Shown: one piece after another, positions 2,626 through 33,225 of the stretch
Layout: the number at the start of each line of letters is the position of its first letter
Position numbering within the stretch: position 1 is the first letter of the stretch
From: a virus
Strand: one strand, 5' to 3'
Length of the DNA: 33,225 nt
Virus record (IMG/VR): IMGVR_UViG_3300049491_000444
Coordinates: 1 to 33,225 of that record
The notes under the pieces: model-generated
What the model was told of the DNA's origin: nothing
Databases searched by the model: none
Seen by the model: the letters and a program-made list of their open reading frames with translations, nothing else
Translations under genes and position numbers: made by a program

Positions 2626-4915
2626 GATTTCAACAGGCCTCGGCAAAATCTTCAACATGTTCGGCAACAAGGGAGACGCCGTTGTTAATCCACCTGTTGG
2701 CACAACCGAGCAGGAGGCCAAGAAGAACCCTTATGAAGATGGAGCAAAAATTGCTGCAGATATCCTTGAACACCTCAGAGAAGTTGACAAACTCCGCTGG
2801 GCCTTTGAACGATTATGGTTTAGATCCATCCTTTACTATCTTGGTAACCAGTGGCTTACATGGGACGCTCGTTCTCGCCGCTGGCGCGAAAAGAAGGTTA
2901 GAAAATGGGTTCCCAAACCTGTTACCAATCGGTACGCCTCAACAGCAGATACGTTGTGTGCGGCCATCCAAAGCACAAAAGTAGAGCCTTCGGCCTGGCC
3001 TGCTACCGAAGATGTCGAAGACATAGCTGCCGCTAACATAGCCGATCGGGTAATAGAAGTAATCAACCCAGAAATCCACGTAGAACGTGTTCGTGAAGCA
3101 GTAGCCAAGTGGATCACCCTCAACGCAGATGCCTTTGTCTTCTGTCATTACGACAAGAAGGATGTCTCACTTGGCAAGACCAAGATCGAACTTCTAGCGT
3201 GTCCAATATGTGCCCAAGTTGCCGAGCCGGTGGCTTGGGAAGGTTCCGGTGGTGCTTGTCCCGCATGCGGCGAGCTTGTGCCTCCGCAGCCAAGTGGTCA
3301 GTTTAATGAATATCCGGTGGGTAGGCTCAAGGCAGATGTCTGCTCGCCCTTGGAAGTTTACCTCAATGTTGATATCACCGATATGGGAAAGCAGTTGAAG
3401 TTCACGATTGCCAAGAGCTACGCTACGGACACTGTGAAGAGCTGGTTTCCTGATATGAAGGATAAGATTCACCCTGACACGAATAGTGCCACCCGTGCGG
3501 CTCAATACTTCATGGACGCTCTCGCATATAGCACCGAGGATTCTGGCTACAATCTAACAGGTGCGGTGCAGCGAGATCGTGTCACTCTCTTGAGACACAT
3601 ACAGATGCCCTCAGAACAATTTCCCGAAGGCCTCGACGCTACTGTTACAATGGACAGCATATGCCTAGAGGCAGGTCCCAGCCCATTCTTCGAGGAAACA
3701 GCCGAAGGTAAGCAATACTACTGTCCATTGGTTAAGTTCGGCTACAATATGGTACCTGGCCGCTTGTATAGCAAAACTCCCATGTTTGATATTATCCCCA
3801 AACAAGACCAACTAAACCGTATCGAATCATTATTGGAGCTAGCCTCCATGAAAGGTGTTAATGTTAACTGGATCATACCGAATGGATCGTCGATTAGTAA
3901 TCTGTCAGGTGAGCCGAGCCAAATTATCAGATGGACCCCGTCTGGTACTGGTGGTGCTAAACCCGAGGTCGTCACCGTTGCGCCGTTCCACGCCGCGATG
4001 CTGGAATTAAAGAAACAATATGAAGCCGATTTTGAGGAAATAGCTGGTACCTTTGACGCCATGAAAGGTAACACCCCCTCAGGTGTCAGCGCAGGCTACG
4101 CCATCCAGCTATTAACAGAACGTAGCTACGGTCGCTTTGTATCGGTGTTCTCGAACTGGGAAGCTGGTTGGACAGACCTCTATACCATCTTGCTGAAGCT
4201 CTTCCGCACGTATGCAACCGAAGCTCGCATGAGAAAAATAAGGGGTGCAACAGGTGGCTGGGAAATCAAAGCCTTCAAAGGTGCCGACCTCAAAGGGGCT
4301 GTGGACATACGGATTGAAGGCGGGTCGGCGCGGCCTCGCTCTAAGCTCGCAGAACAAGCCTTGGTTGAAGCGATGGCGAAAATCGGAGTTGTTAATCCTA
4401 GCAATCCTGAGCAAGGGTTCGAGATCGCCAAGCTCTTTGGAATGACCAATATTCTGGGTGCCAATGATGAGGATGTTCGCTATGCGGCGGGTGAGTGGCA
4501 AGCTTTGCTGGATTGGCAACCTGAGACTGATCCCAATACAGGTATGCCCATGATGGGTCCCCAAACCCCTGGTGGCCCACCCTCGCCATTTCCTCCCGGT
4601 GGACCTGTGGTAGAGCCTATCTTTGACAATCACCTTGTCCATATCATGGAGCATCGTAAACCTTCCAGGACAGAGCAATACAAGACCCTAGAGCCCTGGA
4701 AGCAAATGTTCTGGAAAAACCACGTATTAGATCATTTGATGGCCATGCCGCCTCCTCCAGGCTCTGAGCTACCGCAGAAGCCCGGCTCACCGTCAGGCGG
4801 TCCCAAAAGCGAAGCAACGAGCAAAGCCAACGAGAAGGGTGACAAAACAATGGATACCGCACGAGAAGGCGGCTCTGTCGCTTTTGGCGGTGGAGGTTCT
4901 AATCAGTATCAATAG
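2609..4915 (+). CDS. Portal protein with inserted zinc ribbon
   Basis: A 768-residue portal, the dodecameric ring at the capsid vertex through which DNA is packaged and ejected. It follows terminase and precedes scaffold and capsid genes, and its size is close to P22-type portals. The N-terminal part is helical and tryptophan-rich; the middle and C-terminal stem/crown regions resemble podovirus portals. A four-cysteine knuckle pair, CPIC (C198, C201) and CPAC (C217, C220), is inserted in the wing region. Residues about 640-768 are rich in Pro, Gly and Met and look disordered. AAGGAG about 7 bases upstream supports ATG 2609. Confidence 0.8.
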   Translation: MNLSPEISTGLGKIFNMFGNKGDAVVNPPVGTTEQEAKKNPYEDGAKIAADILEHLREVDKLRWAFERLWFRSILYYLGNQWLTWDARSRRWREKKVRKWVPKPVTNRYASTADTLCAAIQSTKVEPSAWPATEDVEDIAAANIADRVIEVINPEIHVERVREAVAKWITLNADAFVFCHYDKKDVSLGKTKIELLACPICAQVAEPVAWEGSGGACPACGELVPPQPSGQFNEYPVGRLKADVCSPLEVYLNVDITDMGKQLKFTIAKSYATDTVKSWFPDMKDKIHPDTNSATRAAQYFMDALAYSTEDSGYNLTGAVQRDRVTLLRHIQMPSEQFPEGLDATVTMDSICLEAGPSPFFEETAEGKQYYCPLVKFGYNMVPGRLYSKTPMFDIIPKQDQLNRIESLLELASMKGVNVNWIIPNGSSISNLSGEPSQIIRWTPSGTGGAKPEVVTVAPFHAAMLELKKQYEADFEEIAGTFDAMKGNTPSGVSAGYAIQLLTERSYGRFVSVFSNWEAGWTDLYTILLKLFRTYATEARMRKIRGATGGWEIKAFKGADLKGAVDIRIEGGSARPRSKLAEQALVEAMAKIGVVNPSNPEQGFEIAKLFGMTNILGANDEDVRYAAGEWQALLDWQPETDPNTGMPMMGPQTPGGPPSPFPPGGPVVEPIFDNHLVHIMEHRKPSRTEQYKTLEPWKQMFWKNHVLDHLMAMPPPPGSELPQKPGSPSGGPKSEATSKANEKGDKTMDTAREGGSVAFGGGGSNQYQ

Positions 4916-4922
4916 GACTAAT

Positions 4923-5399
4923 ATGAGTGATCTATTAGAAAGTGCCACCTTAGGTTGGGCCGCAGGTATTATTGACGGAGAAGGTTCTATTGGAGTCTAT
5001 TACAATAGCAAAGCTAATGGCTTCTACTTGATGTTAACCGCTTTTAACACAGATCCAAGAATGTGCATTAAGTTACAAGAACTATTCGGAGGCAATGTTA
5101 AGTATCACAAACACGACAAACCTAATGCAAAGGGATGCTTTACCTGGGTACTAGTTGCAGGTAATGCTGCAACTGTTTTAGAAATACTATTGCCTTTTCT
5201 GATAATTAAAAAAGAGCAAGCAGAATTAGCTATAGAGTTTGGTAAGTTATCTCGTATTCATGTAGGTAGGGGTTGTCCAGTACCAGAGTCTGTTCTAGCA
5301 GCGAGAAGTGAAATTGCAAGAAAACTTAAGCAAATTAAAACTGCAGAGTTTAATGAAGACTTTTCACCTCTAACTGTTAAGGATGAGCAATTTCAATGA
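4923..5399 (+). CDS. LAGLIDADG homing endonuclease 1
   Basis: A 158-residue protein with one LAGLIDADG-type motif, GWAAGIIDGEGS, at residues 11-22, where the helix forms the dimer interface and the acidic residue binds the catalytic metal. Single-motif members act as homodimers that cut a long target and spread their own gene. It is about half identical by eye to the second copy at 8744-9238, including shared NTDPRM, ILEILLPF and KKEQA stretches. It is AT-richer than the neighbouring genes, which fits recent acquisition. It is free-standing: it starts 7 bases after the portal stop, its TGA overlaps the next ATG, and no intron interrupts a gene. A GTG start at 4839 would overlap the portal and is unlikely. 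Confidence 0.88.
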   Translation: MSDLLESATLGWAAGIIDGEGSIGVYYNSKANGFYLMLTAFNTDPRMCIKLQELFGGNVKYHKHDKPNAKGCFTWVLVAGNAATVLEILLPFLIIKKEQAELAIEFGKLSRIHVGRGCPVPESVLAARSEIARKLKQIKTAEFNEDFSPLTVKDEQFQ

Positions 5400-5620
5400 A
5401 CACTAAAGGCCTAGCACATGCGATTAAGGGAATAGAGCTTGAGTTAGAGAATCTCAAGCGGCACGCGGGTTTGCCGATGGATACAGGCGAAGAGGAGTCT
5501 TATGAAGAGCCTGAAGAAGAATTGACCAAGGTTGTAGGCCGAGGCCGTAAGCAGCGCACGGTGCCCACGCTTGGAGATGGTTCTTTAGGCAAAAAGCCTA
5601 AGGACGAGGATGAGGACTAA
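5396..5620 (+). CDS. Small acidic protein downstream of homing endonuclease 1
   Basis: A 74-residue protein starts in ATGA overlap with the endonuclease stop. The first ~25 residues form a helix rich in Leu, Glu and Lys; the rest is strongly charged (EEESYEEPEEEL, then KKPKDEDED) and probably disordered. Its original neighbour before the endonuclease arrived was presumably the portal. I do not recognise a family. A head-assembly accessory is possible from position only. Confidence 0.6.
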   Translation: MNTKGLAHAIKGIELELENLKRHAGLPMDTGEEESYEEPEEELTKVVGRGRKQRTVPTLGDGSLGKKPKDEDED

Positions 5621-9238: not shown

Positions 9239-10518
9239 TGGGCTTAGATATAAGTGCTTACGATGCAGCCCTGAAAGAGGTATACGAAAAGACAATCATC
9301 GTACTCCTCAATTCCAGGACTGTTACAAGAAATCGTTTCAAAAAGGAGACTGGTAGTTGGGAAGGTCGCGTGGTTAGGTATCCACTTAACCTCGGCCGCA
9401 ACCAGGGCACGATGTTTACTTCTGAGAACGGCACCTTACCGGATGCCGGCAATCAGGAGTACGTTGAGCACCAGGTTCCGATTCGGTACGCTCACGGCAG
9501 AATCCAATTGTCCATTCAAGTCATCAAGCATTCTCGGTCCAACAAAGGTGCCTTCAAGCGTGCCATGGACCAGGAAATGCAGGGCTTGATTCGAGACCTG
9601 TCAAACAAGCTCAACCGGGCCATCTATGGCTACGGCTCAGGTGTGCTTGCGCTCCTGAATGGAGATCCAGGTACCTCGACTACGCTTACGGTGGATGCAC
9701 CTGGCGGCGTAGCTGGTGCGGTCAACGGCGCACGGTGGTTGCAGAAGAACATGTATGTCCATATCGTTAACCCGACTGGACCTGCTATTCGTACCGGCAC
9801 CGCGCGTAAGATCACGGCTGTTGCGAGTGATGGTTTGAGTGTTACCATCGACGCGGCTGCCGATGCCTCGTATGCTGATAACGACTACGTAGTACAGGCC
9901 GCAAAGCCCAGCACATCTACGTTGGCCGATACCAGCATGAACAAGGAGAGCATGGGCCTTCTCGGTTTGGTTGATGATGGAGACTATGTAAGTACTCTCC
10001 ACAACGTCAACCGCAGCACGTATCCAATCTTCAACAGCGTCAATGTCACCTCTGTAGGACCGCTCTCAGCGGACATCCTCCAGAGAGGCCTTGATGTTGC
10101 GGATCAGGTTGGTGAGGGTGCTGTGCAGTTCTTCCTCTGTCATCACTCTGTACGCCGAGCGTACTTGACGTTGATGGAGGTTGACCGTCGGTACTCGGGT
10201 GGAGACCTGCGCAAGCCAGATGCAGGCACAGTAGCAGCCAAGATGAAAGATATCACCTTCGGGGACATGCCCTGGTACGTCGATAAGGACGCTCCTTATG
10301 GTACCCTGTTCGGCATCGACCCGATGCACTTCACTCGGTGGGTTGAAGTGGAAGGTGAATGGGCCGATGATGATGGCACGATCCTGTTGCGACTCGTAGA
10401 CGTTGATGCCTACGAAGCGCGATATAGGATTTTTGAAAACTTCTCACTTGACAGGCCAGCAAGCTGCGTCCGGTGGGATGGTATCACTACCAATATCGTT
10501 GTGGCCCATATCAATTAA
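9238..10518 (+). CDS. Major capsid protein (HK97-fold type)
   Basis: A 426-residue protein directly downstream of the scaffold region, the usual place and size of the major head protein. It shows the N-terminal helix, the long loop with EVN-like hydrophilic residues, and the C-terminal strand pattern of capsid proteins in this group. There is no predicted proteolytic delta domain. ATG 9238 follows AAAAGGAG by about 9 bases and overlaps the endonuclease stop (TAATG); an upstream in-frame GTG-type extension to 9202 lies inside the endonuclease and is unlikely. A strong inverted repeat follows the gene. Confidence 0.82.
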   Translation: MGLDISAYDAALKEVYEKTIIVLLNSRTVTRNRFKKETGSWEGRVVRYPLNLGRNQGTMFTSENGTLPDAGNQEYVEHQVPIRYAHGRIQLSIQVIKHSRSNKGAFKRAMDQEMQGLIRDLSNKLNRAIYGYGSGVLALLNGDPGTSTTLTVDAPGGVAGAVNGARWLQKNMYVHIVNPTGPAIRTGTARKITAVASDGLSVTIDAAADASYADNDYVVQAAKPSTSTLADTSMNKESMGLLGLVDDGDYVSTLHNVNRSTYPIFNSVNVTSVGPLSADILQRGLDVADQVGEGAVQFFLCHHSVRRAYLTLMEVDRRYSGGDLRKPDAGTVAAKMKDITFGDMPWYVDKDAPYGTLFGIDPMHFTRWVEVEGEWADDDGTILLRLVDVDAYEARYRIFENFSLDRPASCVRWDGITTNIVVAHIN

Positions 10519-24686: not shown

Positions 24687-27600
24687 ATGCCTTGGCAAGA
24701 CCAAGATGTTCTAGACGCTCTAAAAGAAACTTATGATCTCGAGAGCGAGTATAAGTTACAAAGAGACCAGATCCATACCAAGAAGTTTAAGGACAAATTG
24801 GATATGGAGAGGATCAAGCATATTGACCATTCTTTGCAGGATGTTATAGGTATCAGGCAGAGTGTGGTTGATAATAATCCAGGGGTGTATGAGGCTTATG
24901 TACAGAAGTATAAGACTGTGCAGAAGCCTGAGCCTGAGGAGGAAGGGACTAGCCCGCTGGCAGGCCTCTTAAGAGGCACTAAGGACACACTTGGTTTTGT
25001 AGCAAAGCACCCACAACGTGCCGGGGCACATGCTAACCTAGGTGTGGAGTCCTTTGCATCGCTGCCTTTTAGAGGCCTTGAGACTGCCTTAATGGGTGAG
25101 AAGGGTGAGTATCCTTTTGCATCTGCCAAGAAATGGCTTCGAGGACGAGAGGAGAATGTTCGCAAGGGTGACATAGAAGCCGGTGTAACACCGGGCTCCA
25201 CTGGCCCGGCTGTTGCCGAGGCAGTTGGTGGAATGGCTGTGCCGGTTGGACCTGCCTTGAAGGCTGGACAGCTTTTGAAGAATATCCTTAAGGGCGGTGC
25301 CTTTGCTGGTAGCATCAGCGCAGGTGAGGAGTTTGCCCAAAAGGGTGATGTCACAGCAGAGCAGACAGGTACGGCGACTGGGTTTGGTATGGGTCTAACA
25401 GGTGCCTTGAGTGCATTGCTTGGCCGAGGTAAAGCACCAAGAATGAGTGCCGATGCAGGACCTGTACCTTCAACCCACCCAGAAGCTGGGCCGAAGCCTT
25501 CGCCAGCTGGGCCTGCTGAGGGTGCTCCTTTACAACTAGAACACAAGCCCATCATATACGGCCAAGAGCCTCCTCGTGGTTTACCCGCTCCTACGCCGCC
25601 AGAACCCAAAGGTCCCGCTCCTTACTACGATCGTATGATGGAGGCTGTAAAGAGCAAAGCCGCATCCGAGCTAACACCTGATGAACAAGGCTTTGTGCTC
25701 TCACAACGTGGTACTGTCAATCCTCCACCTAATGCTGCCGGGGCTAGGGATGTGGTGGGAGATATTCCTACGCGTGAGAGGAAGTTATCAGAAGTCATGG
25801 GCTTGAAGCCTACACCTAAGCAGGGTGCTGAAGCGGCTACGCCTACGAGACCTCCTATTACTGAGAGGCCTCCTGATGATATGGTTGCAGCAAAGCCGGA
25901 GGTGACCAGTGCACCAACCCAGCCGACCAGAACACTCACAGATGTTGTTAGGCCGAAGCCTCCAGTCAGACCCATCGAAACCCTTGAACCTCCAGGAGCA
26001 CCATCTCAGAGAGAGCTCTATGGTACACCAGAACCTACTATGGCTAAAGCGGCACCTGAACCAGAAGTCTCCCCAATCACAGCCAAGGCTACCGCACAAA
26101 CAAAAGAGATGTCGGGTAAGTCTAAGCTCCTTACTCCCGAAGAAGCTATTAACATTGCTAAGGAGATGGATGCTCACAAAGTGGCCATGGAGAAGGAGGC
26201 TACTTTAAGAGATGTGGTTAGTGGGAAGTTGGATGTGTCTAAAGTGCCGATGAAGCGATCTGGTAAAGCTAGAGGTGTCAAAGGAGGCACAAGCAAAGAA
26301 GTCCCAAAAAGTGAAGCTCCAGCCCCTACCGTAAAGGGTGAGGTTGGGGCTCCTATAGAAGAGGTTGGAGTAGCAGTAGAGCCAAAAATTGACTTCTTCG
26401 GCGGAACACCTGTTCGTCCGCTAGCTTCTGGTCAAATGAGCAAAAGCAAAGCCGAGCCACTAGCAGAGATAGGTGGGGATCAGAACCTACAGCGTGATCT
26501 TGCTGCTGTAGATCGAATGTTAGATAAAGCAGGTAAAATGTCTAAGGAGGTTCCCCTTGAGAAACCAACAAAGACAACTAAAGTGGAGTTGCAACCCAAG
26601 AGAACTGAAGACTTTATCAAAGAACAGGGATACAAGGTCAGAGAACGAGAACCCTTCCCAGGAGAAAAAGAATACGACATTATCGACCCTCGCACAGGAA
26701 ACATTATTGCGAGAGGAGATCGAGAACAGCTTACCCACGCTCTCGGAAATGTTAAAGAAGCCAAGGGCTTCAAACTTCACTCGTTTCCTTCTGGAATAGA
26801 GGACTTTGTTCCTCTGTTTAAGGACAAGCTCCGGTGTGTTGGGGCTAGGGTACCAGAGGGTGTCGATGTAGATGCACCTAAACAAGCAGGTACTCTTAAT
26901 ACTTTACTTAGGCCTTTTGAAACACCTGAGTTTAATGTTAGAAAGAGTGAAGCTGGACGTACTATCACAGATGCCGGCCGAGAGGCTGATAGGCAGATCA
27001 ATAGACGTGTGCGGGATCTGATCACAGAAGAGGTTGTTCCTGGTAAGGAGTACACTCCAACCAAGCTGAGTGCATACTTCTCGGCCGATGCCGAGATAAG
27101 AGATAAGGTAAACAAAGTATTGGTGCTAGGTGACAAGGCTGAAGAAGTCTATACCCCAGCGCAGCTTACCAAATATGGTCTAACTACCGACGAAGTTACC
27201 ATGTACCAAGGAGTACGCGAGGCATTAGATAAGGTAGTAAACTGGGTAAAAGAACTTGGTCCTGATTATGCCGAGTTTGATTCTAGGAAGATTGACGGTT
27301 ACATCCCTAGGGTTTGGAAAGGTGACTGGGAGATCTTTGTCAATGGTAACAAACATCTAAGAGCTAAGACTGAGACATCTTCGTTTAGCACCTTAAGCGA
27401 AGCTGCGGCGGAGGCGCATGGGATTAAGGCTGGTGATCCAAAGGCCAAGATTGCAATAAAGTTCTTCCCAGATCCTGAATACCTCAGTAGTAGAGGTCTA
27501 CAAGATGCTCGTGTGATAGCACGTCTTAAGAGTAACCTAGAGCGAATGGGTCATATGGATTCTGCCGCTATTGACGAGGCGTTTAAGATGGGCAAGTCTG

Positions 27601-29198
27601 TTAAAGGATTTGCCAAACACTTGTTAGAACGAAAGGACGCCAGTGGATATGAGACCCAGGATCTTGATAAAGTTCTCAATTCCTACTTCTATCAAGCCGC
27701 CAGACGCGTTGAGATGCAGAAGGTTAAGAGTGTGGCAGAGAGTGTTCTTAAAGAAAGCAAAGCTGACCTTTCGCCGGGACAGGTCCGTTATATGCAGGAG
27801 TATGTTGAACGTGTGGCTGGGAAACCTGCATGGGACCAAATAGCAATTCATCAGTTTGTGCAGGATACTCCTATTGGAAAGTGGATAGATCCTGTTAGAG
27901 GTGGGAAGTTGATCTCAAGCGGTAAGGAGTTTATCACACATCTCACGCTGGGCTTCGGCAACGTCGGCTGGGCCGCGATTAACTTGGATGGTTTGACTAG
28001 ACACGTCTGGCCTATGCTTGCAAACGAAGCTAAGATGGTAGGTTCTAAGGATCTCCTGGCTGCCGAGAAGTATGGGCTTAATGCGGTTAAGGAGTTCTTT
28101 AAGAACAAAGGCCTTCGTCAACAGCTAGCGCATCATGGGGTTATTGATATTCAGTTGATGTCTGAGCCGACGCCAAAGATTGGTCATGAGTTTGGTAAAG
28201 GGCACTGGACACCTGAGCGCGTCAGCTTATTGCTTGGTACGGCTACTGAGGAATTTAGCCGAGGCGTGGCAGCTATAGCGCGTTATAACATGGCTTTAGA
28301 TCATGGCGCAACGCCTGCTGTAGCTATGCAGGACGCGGCTCGATTCGTCGAACAAACACTTGGACGTTATACACGCGGCGGACGGCCACCTATTTATACT
28401 GGGGCAATTGGCTCAACAGTTGGATTGTTCAAAACCTACATGACCGTCATGTTGCAGAATGGATGGAAGGCACTTGAGTCTAAAGACGTGGGTACTATTA
28501 CGCGTTATATTGCTGGTGCTGTTGGTGTTAGTGGTGTACTTGGGCTTGTCCCGGGGATTGAAGATATGGATGATGCCATAACGAAGAACTTCGGCTGGAG
28601 CCCAATTGAGATGATTGAGAAGAATCTCCCGCCTGCTGTAGCTACTGGGTTGTTGACGATTAGTGGAGTGGATTTATCGAGGAAAGCTGGAGTGCCTGAG
28701 ATATTCCCTGATAATGCTAGGGGATGGGCTGGGCCAGTGGTTGGGAGATACGCATCTGTGATAGCTGATATTATGAATGGTGAGTATGGAGAGGCCGCTT
28801 TGGATATGTTGCCTAATTCCATTCGTAACATATTGGCGGTGACAAGGGGTATGAAGGAAGGTAAGATTATCGGCAGACTGGATAAGCCCTCTTTTGAGGC
28901 TACGCCTAAAGAAGCTACATTACATGCTATTGGTGTTACGCCTGCAAGAGAAGCAGCTGAGTCCAGGTTGTATGGTAGGAATGTTAATAAAGAGATCTAT
29001 CGTGATGAGAAGCTAAACCATCTCACGCGAAAAATCGTAGCAGGCAAGGCCTCGGATGAGGACTACGCCGAGTTTTCCAGGCTCGGCGGTAAGCACCAAC
29101 GGATTAAGAATGAACGTCGTAGACAGCAGGAGACTCTTATAGAAAGACAGTTTAGACATCTCCCTAAGCGGCTTCGTATGGAGCAGCCTAGGGATTAG
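24687..29198 (+). CDS. Giant internal/ejection protein (T7 gp16-like class)
   Basis: A 1503-residue protein, the largest in the window. Residues 1-60 are charged helices; 80-240 hold Gly/Ala-rich hydrophobic segments; 250-600 are a Pro/Ala/Lys/Glu-rich flexible linker with repeated DVV/EVMGLKPTP-like phrases; about 640-1450 are mostly helical with hydrophobic patches (around 1280-1370). The layout and last place in the late block fit the large internal protein that leaves the capsid with the DNA and forms a conduit across the envelope. I see no clear transglycosylase motif, unlike T7 gp16. The TAG at 29196-29198 overlaps the stop of the converging minus-strand gene. Confidence 0.72.
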   Translation: MPWQDQDVLDALKETYDLESEYKLQRDQIHTKKFKDKLDMERIKHIDHSLQDVIGIRQSVVDNNPGVYEAYVQKYKTVQKPEPEEEGTSPLAGLLRGTKDTLGFVAKHPQRAGAHANLGVESFASLPFRGLETALMGEKGEYPFASAKKWLRGREENVRKGDIEAGVTPGSTGPAVAEAVGGMAVPVGPALKAGQLLKNILKGGAFAGSISAGEEFAQKGDVTAEQTGTATGFGMGLTGALSALLGRGKAPRMSADAGPVPSTHPEAGPKPSPAGPAEGAPLQLEHKPIIYGQEPPRGLPAPTPPEPKGPAPYYDRMMEAVKSKAASELTPDEQGFVLSQRGTVNPPPNAAGARDVVGDIPTRERKLSEVMGLKPTPKQGAEAATPTRPPITERPPDDMVAAKPEVTSAPTQPTRTLTDVVRPKPPVRPIETLEPPGAPSQRELYGTPEPTMAKAAPEPEVSPITAKATAQTKEMSGKSKLLTPEEAINIAKEMDAHKVAMEKEATLRDVVSGKLDVSKVPMKRSGKARGVKGGTSKEVPKSEAPAPTVKGEVGAPIEEVGVAVEPKIDFFGGTPVRPLASGQMSKSKAEPLAEIGGDQNLQRDLAAVDRMLDKAGKMSKEVPLEKPTKTTKVELQPKRTEDFIKEQGYKVREREPFPGEKEYDIIDPRTGNIIARGDREQLTHALGNVKEAKGFKLHSFPSGIEDFVPLFKDKLRCVGARVPEGVDVDAPKQAGTLNTLLRPFETPEFNVRKSEAGRTITDAGREADRQINRRVRDLITEEVVPGKEYTPTKLSAYFSADAEIRDKVNKVLVLGDKAEEVYTPAQLTKYGLTTDEVTMYQGVREALDKVVNWVKELGPDYAEFDSRKIDGYIPRVWKGDWEIFVNGNKHLRAKTETSSFSTLSEAAAEAHGIKAGDPKAKIAIKFFPDPEYLSSRGLQDARVIARLKSNLERMGHMDSAAIDEAFKMGKSVKGFAKHLLERKDASGYETQDLDKVLNSYFYQAARRVEMQKVKSVAESVLKESKADLSPGQVRYMQEYVERVAGKPAWDQIAIHQFVQDTPIGKWIDPVRGGKLISSGKEFITHLTLGFGNVGWAAINLDGLTRHVWPMLANEAKMVGSKDLLAAEKYGLNAVKEFFKNKGLRQQLAHHGVIDIQLMSEPTPKIGHEFGKGHWTPERVSLLLGTATEEFSRGVAAIARYNMALDHGATPAVAMQDAARFVEQTLGRYTRGGRPPIYTGAIGSTVGLFKTYMTVMLQNGWKALESKDVGTITRYIAGAVGVSGVLGLVPGIEDMDDAITKNFGWSPIEMIEKNLPPAVATGLLTISGVDLSRKAGVPEIFPDNARGWAGPVVGRYASVIADIMNGEYGEAALDMLPNSIRNILAVTRGMKEGKIIGRLDKPSFEATPKEATLHAIGVTPAREAAESRLYGRNVNKEIYRDEKLNHLTRKIVAGKASDEDYAEFSRLGGKHQRIKNERRRQQETLIERQFRHLPKRLRMEQPRD

Positions 29199-29688: not shown

Positions 29689-31110
29689 CTACTCCAGCTT
29701 GGCTAGTTTGTAGTACTGCTTGCGCTCATTTCTAAATGGTATAATTAGGCCAGCTTCTTCTAACGTAGTCACAGCCATGTCAAGTTCAGAGGAGTTTTTG
29801 ATTTGGCGGTAGATTTTCTTGCACAGCGTACTACGGTCGATCATGCCTCCTGCACCGCTTATTAGGGTAAGAACAAGCTGGGTTATTTTACCACGCTCAG
29901 ATGTATCAATCATCTTCATAGTCTCTCCACAGTTTTTTGCCGCGATCTGGATGATGTTGAAGGCCCGTTGGAAGTGATCTTCTGTTACAGTCATAGTGGC
30001 TTCTGAGGCTGCCAAGATCATAGCGATTTTGTTCATGTGATCTGTCTGACGTTCGATACTCATGACGCTAGTACCGGCACTCACCACTTCGTGGTGTCGG
30101 CGGTAGTAGGCATCATACCATTTGTCAGCCTCGGGTGTGAGCTTAAACTCCCCGACACATTCGTTATGGATGCGCTGCAAATGGATCACGAGGAGTTCCC
30201 TAATAGTGGGATCTACCTTCACTCCCCTCGGTACAATCCTTGAGGTAGAGTCTTTTTGCACTAAGCATAAGCGAGACATAAAGCCGGAGCCACGGGCCGA
30301 TGATGGGATAGCTCTATCGACCTCACTCGGCGTTGTCGCGCCTAGCAATGATACACAGACATTCTTGAGCTTCTCTGTCCCACGTGATATAGTCTCCACT
30401 TCCAGTGTGTTGGAACAATCATACAGCCTGGTGAGGAACATAATCAAACCGGCGTTGTATTGTTCTGAGCCTAGGAACACCGTCAACTCAGGCGCAAGGA
30501 TTAGACCCTCAGCCCTTGATTCTATCTTCATACCTCCAGAATCTTTGTGTATCTCCAAAGGCTTACTCAAGCGTTTAGCCAAGGCCTCCGGCGTACACTT
30601 CTCGCTTATGATCCTACACTCAGGTACGGCTTCACGTAAGATCTCAGAACCTATTGTTATGGCGGTGGTCTTCTTACCTACCCCAGGGGGTGAGATCAGG
30701 ATAGTGTATAGGTTGGGATAATACTTATGATACACGTTATCAATCCAAGCCCTACGCCTAATAGCTGCGCCGATGATAGTCAAGCCTACCCATACATGAA
30801 AGTCCTCGGGAGCTTCATGCCCTGAGGTATAGTCTAGGTAGTCTTTCAACCACCCTGGGCGTATACTTCTGTGTAAGGTCTCCGCACCAAAAGCCAGACC
30901 AGGGTTAGTGAGGAGCATATTGAACTGAGCCTGGCCTATGTGCAGCCGCTCACAGACTTTGTCTTTGATCTCGATAGACTCACCTAGCTCATCCCACCAT
31001 TTGCGGATGAACGCGAAGATCTCCTGCCGAACGGTAGCAGGAGAGTCGTCGTCTAGGGTATCTAGGATCTTAAAAAGTTCAGCTCGTTTTTCTTCGGATG
31101 ATATAGCCAT
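29689..31110 (-). CDS. DUF3987-like ATPase/helicase
   Basis: A protein of 473 residues from ATG 31110 (a TTG at 31131 would add 7). A P-loop-like segment, SPPGVGKKTT at about 140-149, is a degenerate Walker A (Ser for the first Gly, and Lys between GK and the Thr). LILAPELTVFLG resembles the Walker B region of DUF3987-type phage ATPases, and LLGATTPSEV plus GSGFMSRLCL resemble the later sensor and arginine regions. A winged-helix-like C-terminus follows. These proteins are thought to act as replicative helicases. It lies between a small gene and family A polymerase, which supports replication. It overlaps the upstream gene by 32 bases. Confidence 0.75.
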   Translation of the reverse strand: MAISSEEKRAELFKILDTLDDDSPATVRQEIFAFIRKWWDELGESIEIKDKVCERLHIGQAQFNMLLTNPGLAFGAETLHRSIRPGWLKDYLDYTSGHEAPEDFHVWVGLTIIGAAIRRRAWIDNVYHKYYPNLYTILISPPGVGKKTTAITIGSEILREAVPECRIISEKCTPEALAKRLSKPLEIHKDSGGMKIESRAEGLILAPELTVFLGSEQYNAGLIMFLTRLYDCSNTLEVETISRGTEKLKNVCVSLLGATTPSEVDRAIPSSARGSGFMSRLCLVQKDSTSRIVPRGVKVDPTIRELLVIHLQRIHNECVGEFKLTPEADKWYDAYYRRHHEVVSAGTSVMSIERQTDHMNKIAMILAASEATMTVTEDHFQRAFNIIQIAAKNCGETMKMIDTSERGKITQLVLTLISGAGGMIDRSTLCKKIYRQIKNSSELDMAVTTLEEAGLIIPFRNERKQYYKLAKLE

Positions 31111-31435
31111 GTCTATCTGTTGCCTCTTCAACTATTGGGTGACCTTTGGCAGCTTTAATAGAATACATTGGAATGAATATAGAGTTACCTACTAATCTCG
31201 GTACGGTTCCCACAAAACGTCCATCAGACTCTACAATAAAGTCCCCTTCTAGAAGAGCGTTGAGTATGACACGATAGCCTTCTTCTCGTAGTTGTACGTA
31301 AGGGGCGATTTTTTCTAGGATTCTGTATACGACCATAGCTTCACCTGGAGTCTCGATCATGGCCTCAGCTTCAAGTATAGAGAACATAGAACTTTCTATC
31401 TCTCTCAGAGAGTCAATTCTTTCATCGACCCCCAT
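31079..31435 (-). CDS. Hypothetical replication-region protein
   Basis: A 118-residue protein starting at ATG 31435 inside the polymerase gene's end, with AGG upstream. A longer frame to 31582 would run through polymerase codons and is unlikely. The N-terminal half is helical and acidic, the C-terminal half beta-rich (VRLVGNSIFIPMYS-like strands). It is placed between polymerase and the ATPase, with overlaps both sides, so co-translated replication function is likely. No family was recognised. Confidence 0.6.
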   Translation of the reverse strand: MGVDERIDSLREIESSMFSILEAEAMIETPGEAMVVYRILEKIAPYVQLREEGYRVILNALLEGDFIVESDGRFVGTVPRLVGNSIFIPMYSIKAAKGHPIVEEATDRHGYIIRRKTS

Positions 31436-32622
31436 CTTAAACCTGCTTTTGCTTCTACGGGAAAGCTCACTTTCTTCCCAAAGATCTCCACTTGCCTCTC
31501 CATATATGTCTTCATCTTTAATGTCTCTTCCCTCACTAGTTCCTCCCTCACTTCCATCAGAAGGGAATCGTGGACTTGGCATATGATCCTCGTATCGGGG
31601 TGAAATTTATCTCTGTTCTGGTATATGCGAACCATAGCTCGGTTCATTATACCAGACGCGGTGGTTTGGGTTGGGCTGCTGTAGGCTACTTGGCGTCTAC
31701 GACCGGGGGGTTCAAACAGAGTACGAGGTACGCCGAAGCCATCATATAACATACCAGTCCTCTCAGCATCAGCCCAGCACTTGTTATGCCAGGCCATGAT
31801 CTCAGGTACGTCATCGTCCATAGCTTTTAGCATAGGTGCTATTTCTTCTTCCGGGTGCCACTCGTGCGTGTCTTCGAGCATCTTGAGACAGACGGTTTTG
31901 ACACTGGCACCATATCCACGAGAATACCGTAGACGCTTTGCGAAATCGTATTCTTTAGGGAATTCTTTCTTACTACGGATAGGTTTACCGAATATAAGCC
32001 CTGCTCGGTATAGATGGGTATTTTCACCTCGCTCGAACATGTTAATGAGTTTAGTACATCCTGACGCATAAGAAGGGATGCGATCCTCAAGGGCAGAATA
32101 ATCGAGTTCAACGAGATGGAATCCGGCTGGAGCTTTGTAGATGTCTTTGACATTTATACCTTGAACCTCCCCTCTCGGTTGGTTTTGCATGTCGGGTTCT
32201 TTGCTGCTTAGACGCCAGGTTAGGGTGCCATAGGTACGGAAGCTGCTACGCATCCTACTGTCAGGCCACACCGTAGGTTTGAGGTAGGTACCTATAAGCT
32301 TGGTCATCTCGCGGTGTTCTATGATACCCTCAACGATGGGCTTGGTGGGGTGTTTGATGGTTGTCTGTAATAGGGTGATCACGTTGCTATCTTCTACGTC
32401 GATGCCAAGGTCTTGCTTGAACATCTCGATTACTTGCTTTGGAGATGCCGGGTTTATTTGGTAGCCAAAACAGCGTTCGAGAGTTTCTCTGTGTGCAGTG
32501 CGCTGTGCCTCGGCCTTGGCTATAAGCTGAGAACACATGTCGAGGTCGACTAGGATGCCAGCCATCTGGATATCCATCACGGCCCATTGGAGATGTTGGA
32601 CTACTTCATCGTAGTAGGGCAT
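31405..32622 (-). CDS. polA-C: Family A DNA polymerase, polymerase domain only (split PolA)
   Basis: A 405-residue protein starting at ATG 32622, chosen because GGAGG lies 7 bases upstream; longer frames to 32775 lack support. It has the polymerase fold without the 3'-5' exonuclease: TWRLSSKEPDMQNQPRG at about 135-151, motif A DYSALEDRI at 174-182 (D174), motif B K229-Y233-YGAS237-240, and motif C VHD at 350-352. The O-helix position equal to E. coli F762 is Tyr, but the usual arginine (E. coli R754) appears to be Tyr and the Gly after it Ser. Its start (GILVD at 22-26) picks up where the exonuclease fragment at 33060-33225 ends. Two small genes lie between the halves. Confidence 0.87.
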   Translation of the reverse strand: MPYYDEVVQHLQWAVMDIQMAGILVDLDMCSQLIAKAEAQRTAHRETLERCFGYQINPASPKQVIEMFKQDLGIDVEDSNVITLLQTTIKHPTKPIVEGIIEHREMTKLIGTYLKPTVWPDSRMRSSFRTYGTLTWRLSSKEPDMQNQPRGEVQGINVKDIYKAPAGFHLVELDYSALEDRIPSYASGCTKLINMFERGENTHLYRAGLIFGKPIRSKKEFPKEYDFAKRLRYSRGYGASVKTVCLKMLEDTHEWHPEEEIAPMLKAMDDDVPEIMAWHNKCWADAERTGMLYDGFGVPRTLFEPPGRRRQVAYSSPTQTTASGIMNRAMVRIYQNRDKFHPDTRIICQVHDSLLMEVREELVREETLKMKTYMERQVEIFGKKVSFPVEAKAGLRWGSMKELTL

Positions 32623-32681
32623 TCTTTCGCCTCCACGCCCGTTGCCAGCACCAGCACCAGTAGCAGCCACATGGTCATCAT
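32601..32681 (-). CDS. Hydrophobic micro-ORF upstream of polymerase
   Basis: A 26-codon ORF: ATG 32681 is in ATGA overlap with the stop of the upstream 69-residue gene, and it runs over the polymerase start at 32622. The peptide MMTMWLLLVLVLATGVEAK is signal- or membrane-like, ending in ECPTTMK. It could be a small membrane peptide or only a coupling ORF that brings ribosomes to the polymerase start. The evidence is geometry and hydrophobicity. Confidence 0.3.
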   Translation of the reverse strand: MMTMWLLLVLVLATGVEAKECPTTMK

Positions 32682-32887
32682 CCTTCTTCCGGTTCTGCAA
32701 TCGGACCAGCCCAGTGGCCTGGGCATCGCTCGACGGGTTTCCCGGCATAGATAAATAGCCCTGGTTGATCTCCATACGTCCATGCCCTTACGAGAATAAT
32801 GGCCTGAATGACTCGACCGTTTTTCCCATACGACCGTCTCCACCAGTACCAGCCAGGTTGACTAGGTTTTTCGCTCGTCCATGTCAT
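32678..32887 (-). CDS. Small Trp-rich hypothetical protein
   Basis: A 69-residue protein starting at ATG 32887 in ATGA overlap with the gene before, and with AAAGGAG just upstream. It reads like many small phage proteins: KPSQPGWYWWRRS near the start and WAGPIAEPEEG at the end. This type of small protein is common in phage genomes, and its function is unknown. It lies between the polymerase and the exonuclease fragment. Confidence 0.7.
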   Translation of the reverse strand: MTWTSEKPSQPGWYWWRRSYGKNGRVIQAIILVRAWTYGDQPGLFIYAGKPVERCPGHWAGPIAEPEEG

Positions 32888-33063
32888 AGGGCTCCTTTCT
32901 CCCGAATCATCCCTCGTTTACCGCTGTACGCCGCTTCCCACCGATCTGTACACGCCTTCACCCCCACGATCTGCTCAATGGCGAGCATGACCTCACTGGG
33001 GCCGACCAGGTCATAGGCATTGATGCGGCACCAGATGTCTGCTAAGTGTTCATGTTCAGTCAT
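32884..33063 (-). CDS. Small hypothetical protein after exonuclease gene
   Basis: A 59-residue ORF from ATG 33063, in ATGA overlap with the exonuclease fragment's stop and, at its own end, with the next gene's start. GGGAGG lies about 10 bases upstream. It begins MTEHEHLADIWCRINAYDL and is helical, with no recognised family. The two overlaps and good composition support a true gene within the split polymerase interval. Confidence 0.65.
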   Translation of the reverse strand: MTEHEHLADIWCRINAYDLVGPSEVMLAIEQIVGVKACTDRWEAAYSGKRGMIREKGAL

Positions 33064-33225
33064 GCCAATCCAGCCTCCCTCATTTCCTGTGTTATATGCA
33101 GGTCAGCAATATAAGTTGTAATACAATCTCGACAATTATAAGTCCACATCACATCATCAGGTGCCCACATCATACCTCCTGCACCCTTGACCATCAACTT
33201 ATAATGTGGTATGTCTGTGTATATG
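33060..33225 (-). CDS. polA-N: 3'-5' exonuclease domain of family A polymerase, C-terminal part (cut by window edge)
   Basis: An ORF open from the right edge, with its 5' part outside the window. The 54 visible residues include DIPHYK, then MWTYNCRDCITTYIADL, where Y29-x3-D33 matches the third exonuclease motif (YxxxD) of DnaQ/PolA-type proofreading domains, followed by ITQEMREAGLA. In usual polymerases this segment leads straight into the region at which 31405-32622 begins. The stop overlaps the next ATG (ATGA), so this appears to be a separate exonuclease gene. Only the tail end is visible, so the full domain is unconfirmed. Confidence 0.65.
   Translation of the reverse strand, partial: IYTDIPHYKLMVKGAGGMMWAPDDVMWTYNCRDCITTYIADLHITQEMREAGLA

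Follow-up and report, generated by a model that had tools for sequence, protein, structure and literature searches.

We identified a family A DNA polymerase that is encoded by two genes in the window, by which we mean the whole 33,225-base stretch of DNA analysed here (a metagenomic viral contig, IMG/VR record IMGVR_UViG_3300049491_000444). The cut falls exactly at the border between the exonuclease and polymerase domains. The downstream gene encodes a stand-alone polymerase, and the upstream gene, inside which the record stops, encodes a uracil-DNA glycosylase (UDG) joined to an exonuclease in the relatives that contain it completely. We consider it likely that this is a genes-in-pieces family A polymerase, broken at the exonuclease/polymerase linker, whose products reassemble non-covalently, and the two halves probably work together. 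The evidence consists of the gene split itself, the domain content of the two products, their catalytic residues, their conservation and the repeated origin of such splits. Our literature search, outside of which lay subscription journals, returned split PolA, PolB and PolIII cases, none of them cut at the exonuclease/polymerase border with a UDG. The literature searched contains no description of the UDG-bearing border cut, of its presence in five diverged phages or of the repeated splitting.

The split locus in the window

The features of the locus, all on the minus strand, are the following.

33060..33224, minus strand: last 54 codons and stop of the UDG-exonuclease gene, including motif III (YNCRD); the ORF is open at the record end
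32884..33063, minus strand: 59-aa ORF overlapping the exonuclease stop by ATGA; accessory gene lying in the gap
32678..32887, minus strand: 69-aa ORF; ATGA overlap with the 59-aa ORF; phrog_18026, E 0.0037
32601..32681, minus strand: 26-aa hydrophobic ORF, MMTMWLLLVLVLATGVEAKECPTTMK, overlapping the polymerase start; read from the sequence
32630..32634, minus strand: GGAGG, likely ribosome-binding site of the polymerase; read from the sequence
31405..32622, minus strand: family A polymerase encoded on its own (405 aa; thumb, fingers, palm); PF00476, 1e-44; phrog_17 positions 843-1236
31079..31582, minus strand: 167-aa ORF overlapping the polymerase 3' end; its counterpart in relative L002 is 40% identical
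29689..31131, minus strand: DUF3987 / phage primase-helicase-like gene; PF13148, 1.6e-21; phrog_14296, 3e-49

An earlier note made from the sequence alone had described an ORF at the edge of the record that carries YNCRD and ends with EMREAGLA, separated from the polymerase by coupled ORFs of 59, 69 and 26 residues. All of these exist: the edge ORF carries YNCRDC and has the described end, and the three small ORFs overlap head to tail between the exonuclease end and the polymerase. The edge ORF shares 89% identity with the final 54 codons of the L002 gene at 4371-5519 and corresponds to columns 323-375 of a UDG-exo-pol protein profile (62.9 bits). By itself it is too short for a significant Pfam family match, and it shows only exonuclease motif III, the UDG and motifs I and II lying beyond the record end. 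The 59-aa ORF matched no known family and had no homologue among the fetched loci, and the 69-aa ORF has weak similarity to the last part of an early-region L002 gene (30% over 69 aa, E 6e-4). The true start of the polymerase is the ATG at 32622 behind the GGAGG and not position 32775. The DUF3987 gene is the next gene in the replication operon after the polymerase region.

Elsewhere in the window, a 1503-aa ORF (24687-29198) closes the other gene block, and its C-terminal part resembles the L002 ORF at 9264-9842; a gene of similar size at the same place in the relative ctLwi270 is annotated as tegument protein, likely a misnomer. A 235-aa ORF at 1543-2250 matches the RNase H-like part of terminase just below the cut-off (PF17289, E 3e-4). 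In the complete relative (L229, MW202554.1) the terminase large subunit is annotated as two genes (32005-32694 and 32887-34542) with a 62-codon ORF between them. The window lineage may contain two divided enzymes, terminase and polymerase.

The polymerase half

The 405-aa protein matches PF00476 with 153 bits (curated cut-off 34.3) and columns 377-790 of the UDG-exo-pol profile with 487 bits. Its AlphaFold model (pLDDT 95.8) has the thumb-fingers-palm fold and matches residues 523-928 of the Klenow fragment (Z 39, rmsd 2.8, 385 residues aligned). Motifs A (DYSALEDR), B (K...Y) and C (QVHDS) were recognised, with the Asp...Glu, Lys/Tyr and His-Asp residues characteristic of each. The earlier note regarded all three motifs as complete, which holds for A, for C and for the Lys and Tyr of B, but motif B as a whole is non-canonical. 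In the window it reads EYDFAKRLRYSRGYG (within the coding region 31408-32622), with extra Arg residues near the Tyr. The position of E. coli Arg754 is Tyr in all five polymerases split at the domain border, compared to Arg in 60 of the 66 fused relatives, while the equivalents of Lys758 and Tyr766 are retained in all five and position 762 is also Tyr. Since the Arg is absent in 6 of the 66 fused proteins as well, its loss does not exclude family A membership. The Tyr in place of Arg754 nevertheless marks a drift of the polymerase half away from the fused proteins, a point against the proposed reassembly.

Both halves are under strong purifying selection. The polymerases of the window and L002 are 86% identical (dN 0.109, dS 1.63), and for the exonuclease end pN is 0.058 with synonymous sites saturated. 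No internal stop codons are present in either half. With purifying selection on both flanks, the match between the two loci is far beyond chance.

The UDG-exonuclease half in relatives

The UDG-exo-pol profile was run over fetched viral and phage loci. Single-sequence searches of viral contigs found L002 as the sole relative and the others needed alignments; a scan of genome contigs returned cellular UDGs only, which carry no information on hosts or prophages. In L002 the upstream gene (4371-5519) is complete and encodes a 382-aa protein that begins with a family-4 (4Fe-4S type) UDG domain and ends with a 3'-5' exonuclease. The same upstream protein, with the polymerase encoded separately, is found in L004 (ctLwi270), L015 and L094. 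The UDG domain of L002 matches PF03167 (1e-30), and the TIGR00758 cut-off of 125.3 bits is passed by L002 (132.8), L015 (145.6) and L004 (143.2). All split relatives that show the domain have the four Fe-S Cys residues, GEALGE and HPS.

In the AlphaFold model of the L002 protein (pLDDT 93), residues 1-180 match family-4 UDGs (1UI0, Z 26.9, rmsd 2.1) and residues 182-382 match residues 324-523 of Klenow (Z 20.8, rmsd 2.8, 185 aligned), a DnaQ-like exonuclease. The extension of the edge ORF as seen in L002 thus has the exonuclease fold that the earlier note expected, together with motifs I (FDLET) and II (QNxxxFD) in addition to III (YNCRD). Motifs I to III (DxE, Nx3FD, YxxxD) are present in L002, L004, L015 and L094; PF01612 scores above its cut-off in L094 and below it in L002. 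The proposal that the upstream gene encodes the exonuclease was correct but fell short of the whole protein, which in these four relatives is a UDG as well. In the split relatives that show them, the catalytic residues of UDG, ExoI-III and polymerase are all retained. The UDG has the fold (Z about 27), the four Fe-S Cys and the GEA and HPS motifs in common with the family-4 enzymes 1UI0 and 4ZBX, from which it differs in being the N-terminal domain of an exonuclease protein.

Position of the cut

The border position of the cut, also proposed in the earlier note, was found in both profile and structure. The edge ORF ends at column 375 of the UDG-exo-pol profile and the polymerase begins at column 377, so the fused protein is represented without loss of a residue. 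The predicted structures, modelled separately, tile the Klenow fragment without gap or overlap, the UDG-exonuclease covering 324-523 and the polymerase 523-928. On phrog_17 the UDG-exonuclease protein covers positions 477-817 and the polymerase 841-1237. The Klenow fragment of E. coli Pol I is one polypeptide without UDG, whereas the same region is here divided over two proteins, one of which carries a UDG. The locus consists of two ORFs with continuous homology to one ancestral gene and with selection on both, as in genes in pieces.

Fused polymerases with UDG, exonuclease and polymerase domains are known, such as PaBG gp205 (PMC7412058). The PaBG gp205 group, the SPO1-type and the phrog_17 polymerases have three domains identical in kind and order to those described here; the PaBG gp205 group and SPO1-type enzymes are encoded by one gene and the present one by two, cut between exonuclease and polymerase. 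A similar neighbourhood, with methylase/ParB upstream and DUF3987 or primase downstream, is seen in Microcystis phage Mel-JY34, a Desulfofustis phage and vir526.

Repeated splits in the UDG-exo-pol family

Three domains are kept as a single gene in 66 distinct relatives, all of which were included in the trees as single-ORF proteins spanning UDG, exonuclease and polymerase. The split at the exonuclease/polymerase border is shared by the window, L002, L004 (ctLwi270), L015 and L094, whose polymerases are 44-86% identical. The five polymerases form one clade with full support in the polymerase tree, as do the UDG-exonuclease parts of L002, L004, L015 and L094 in the UDG-exonuclease tree. The genome of ctLwi270 is complete and circular (44,345 bp). 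It has one PolA match and one PolA-type exonuclease match, each in the split genes, and no second copy of either was detected in it, so this phage has no back-up gene; the earlier note had named a complete exonuclease-polymerase gene elsewhere in the genome as an outcome that would speak against a split.

Two further split sites were found. In the cultivable Caulobacter phage Kuura, in L016 and in the group of L036, L060 and L071 the cut lies between exonuclease motifs II and III; it is present in three lineages (L010, L016, L036, L060 and L071), and the gap of some of them contains small unrelated genes. These lineages, cut through the exonuclease active site, still keep all three exonuclease motifs, and because the cut separates the kept motifs an active exonuclease would need reassembly. 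In Vibrio phage VS-ABTNL-3 (L011) and L106 the break comes immediately ahead of motif A, close to the intron site of SPO1, and a 184-aa ORF or several small genes separate the parts. A separate group of eight loci (L134, L137, L139, L140, L142, L145, L146 and L147) has a protein of about 490 aa (489 in L134) consisting of UDG and a probable exonuclease, followed by several genes and then the polymerase. In two fused relatives, L105 (4944-8312) and L118 (4947-8474), motif B of the polymerase is interrupted by intein-like insertions that are about 300 residues long or longer.

The polymerase tree places L016 as the sister of the window clade (99), but the UDG-exonuclease tree does not, and we draw no conclusion from this placement. 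On the trees the split states are scattered among fused relatives and several separate origins are needed; read in this way, splits arose repeatedly in the family. Fission is favoured over fusion as the direction of change, with the root of the tree weakly placed. That the genes were separate ancestrally and became fused UDG-exo-pol genes later, which would be compatible with docking of the products, draws on this weak root and on an outgroup that is not a single clade. We regard it as improbable, given that the split clade is nested inside fused lineages and that several separate changes lie scattered among the 66 fused proteins.

DNA between the halves

The adjacency of exonuclease and polymerase is kept in all five border-split phages, and the intervening DNA is different in each. 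Neither this variation nor the recurrence of splits in the family is mentioned in the earlier note. In L015 there is no gap, the polymerase ATG lying inside the end of the exonuclease gene. The gap of L004 is 151 bases and contains an NrdR zinc-ribbon frame (PF22811, E 5e-14), L094 has a deoxyribosyltransferase-like ORF, L002 a 160-aa ORF and the window the three small ORFs. Comparing translations by eye, the L094 ORF has an apparent counterpart in L002 about 2 kb further upstream. No endonuclease family was matched among the gap ORFs scanned for a homing endonuclease, and L015 has no gap to hold one. From its contents, the gap is a slot for ordinary, unrelated small early genes.

It is very unlikely that the halves are joined into one protein before or after translation by a group I intron, a split intein or a programmed frameshift. 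The SPO1 polymerase does contain a group I intron, the insertions in motif B of L105 and L118 are intein-like, and the authors who described the split PolA of OM43 phages MEP401 and MEP402 suspected an intron there (PMC10580990). The overlapping cistrons of L015, however, leave nothing to splice out, the gap sequences are mutually unrelated, and the polymerase start follows a purine-rich stretch resembling a ribosome-binding site. The Rfam group I intron model, searched by E-value since the gathering score missed even the SPO1 intron, finds that intron as a positive control (E 4e-4) and not the L002 or window junction. Intein remains were not found at the new ends, which coincide with the domain border (Klenow 523 on both sides). 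The overlap in L015, together with no intron signal and no intein, makes the halves most likely separate proteins. A broken pseudogene or chimeric contig is an explanation with next to no probability. Although the window comes from a metagenome and breaks off within the gene, the identical split occurs in five separate records, one of them complete and circular, and strong purifying selection, intact catalytic residues and uninterrupted frames in both halves argue against decay. Pseudogene and assembly artefact are thereby largely refuted.

How the divided enzyme may work

In the mechanism that we propose, a fused UDG-exo-pol gene was broken at the exonuclease/polymerase linker in an ancestor of the window lineage. 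The two products would be translated together from neighbouring, packed cistrons of one operon, UDG-exonuclease first and polymerase second, and would dock non-covalently in roughly the Klenow arrangement. The exonuclease could then proofread for the polymerase in trans and, once docked, would bring the UDG, presumed active, to the replisome. We infer docking from the conserved neighbourhood, from the cuts through the active site in lineages that keep all motifs and from the precedents of gp43A/gp43B and NrdA.

These precedents concern other proteins. The split family B polymerase of Aeromonas phage 25, gp43A/gp43B, co-purifies and polymerises, a split gp43A/gp43B is also found in Aeromonas phage 44RR, and the split NrdA of Aeh1 is active (PMC2988022). 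They are genes in pieces with demonstrated assembly, compared to the predicted assembly here, and gp43A/gp43B belong to family B, not family A. They are also tied to homing endonucleases or intercistronic sequence (PMC2988022), none of which was seen in the present loci. Among family A enzymes, the PolA of MEP401 and MEP402 is split into two ORFs with a small ORF of unknown function between them. That cut lies inside the polymerase domain (exonuclease plus N-terminal polymerase, then C-terminal polymerase), in contrast to the border cut described here, and the passages of that report dealing with the split mention no UDG, which here resides on the exonuclease half (PMC10580990).

Alternatively, the two products could function independently of each other: the polymerase would lack an exonuclease, and the UDG-exonuclease would repair or edit DNA on its own, undocked. 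Both halves are modelled with high confidence as complete domains, and the UDG is fused to the exonuclease and not to the polymerase. The isolated Klenow polymerase domain works alone; a polymerase domain can act by itself and assembly is not strictly required. Against independence stand the adjacency kept in five of five phages despite changing intervening DNA and the active-site cuts in three lineages with all motifs kept, which are hard to explain without assembly, and we judge independent action rather unlikely. Reassembly of a divided polymerase is the reading that we prefer. A more specific form of it, which we put forward tentatively, is a two-subunit family A replicase in which the UDG-exonuclease proofreads in trans, like Pol III alpha-epsilon, and removes uracil at the fork, within a family that tolerates fission unusually well, at three sites of which one runs through the exonuclease active site.

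Annotation pipelines would see an exonuclease-less polymerase and a UDG in such genomes, and not one divided enzyme. If the enzyme is indeed divided in this way, it would be the natural equivalent of what has been done in the laboratory by separating the two Klenow domains. The natural fission variants at several positions would allow a test of how the polymerase and proofreading halves meet, and of proofreading in trans in family A.
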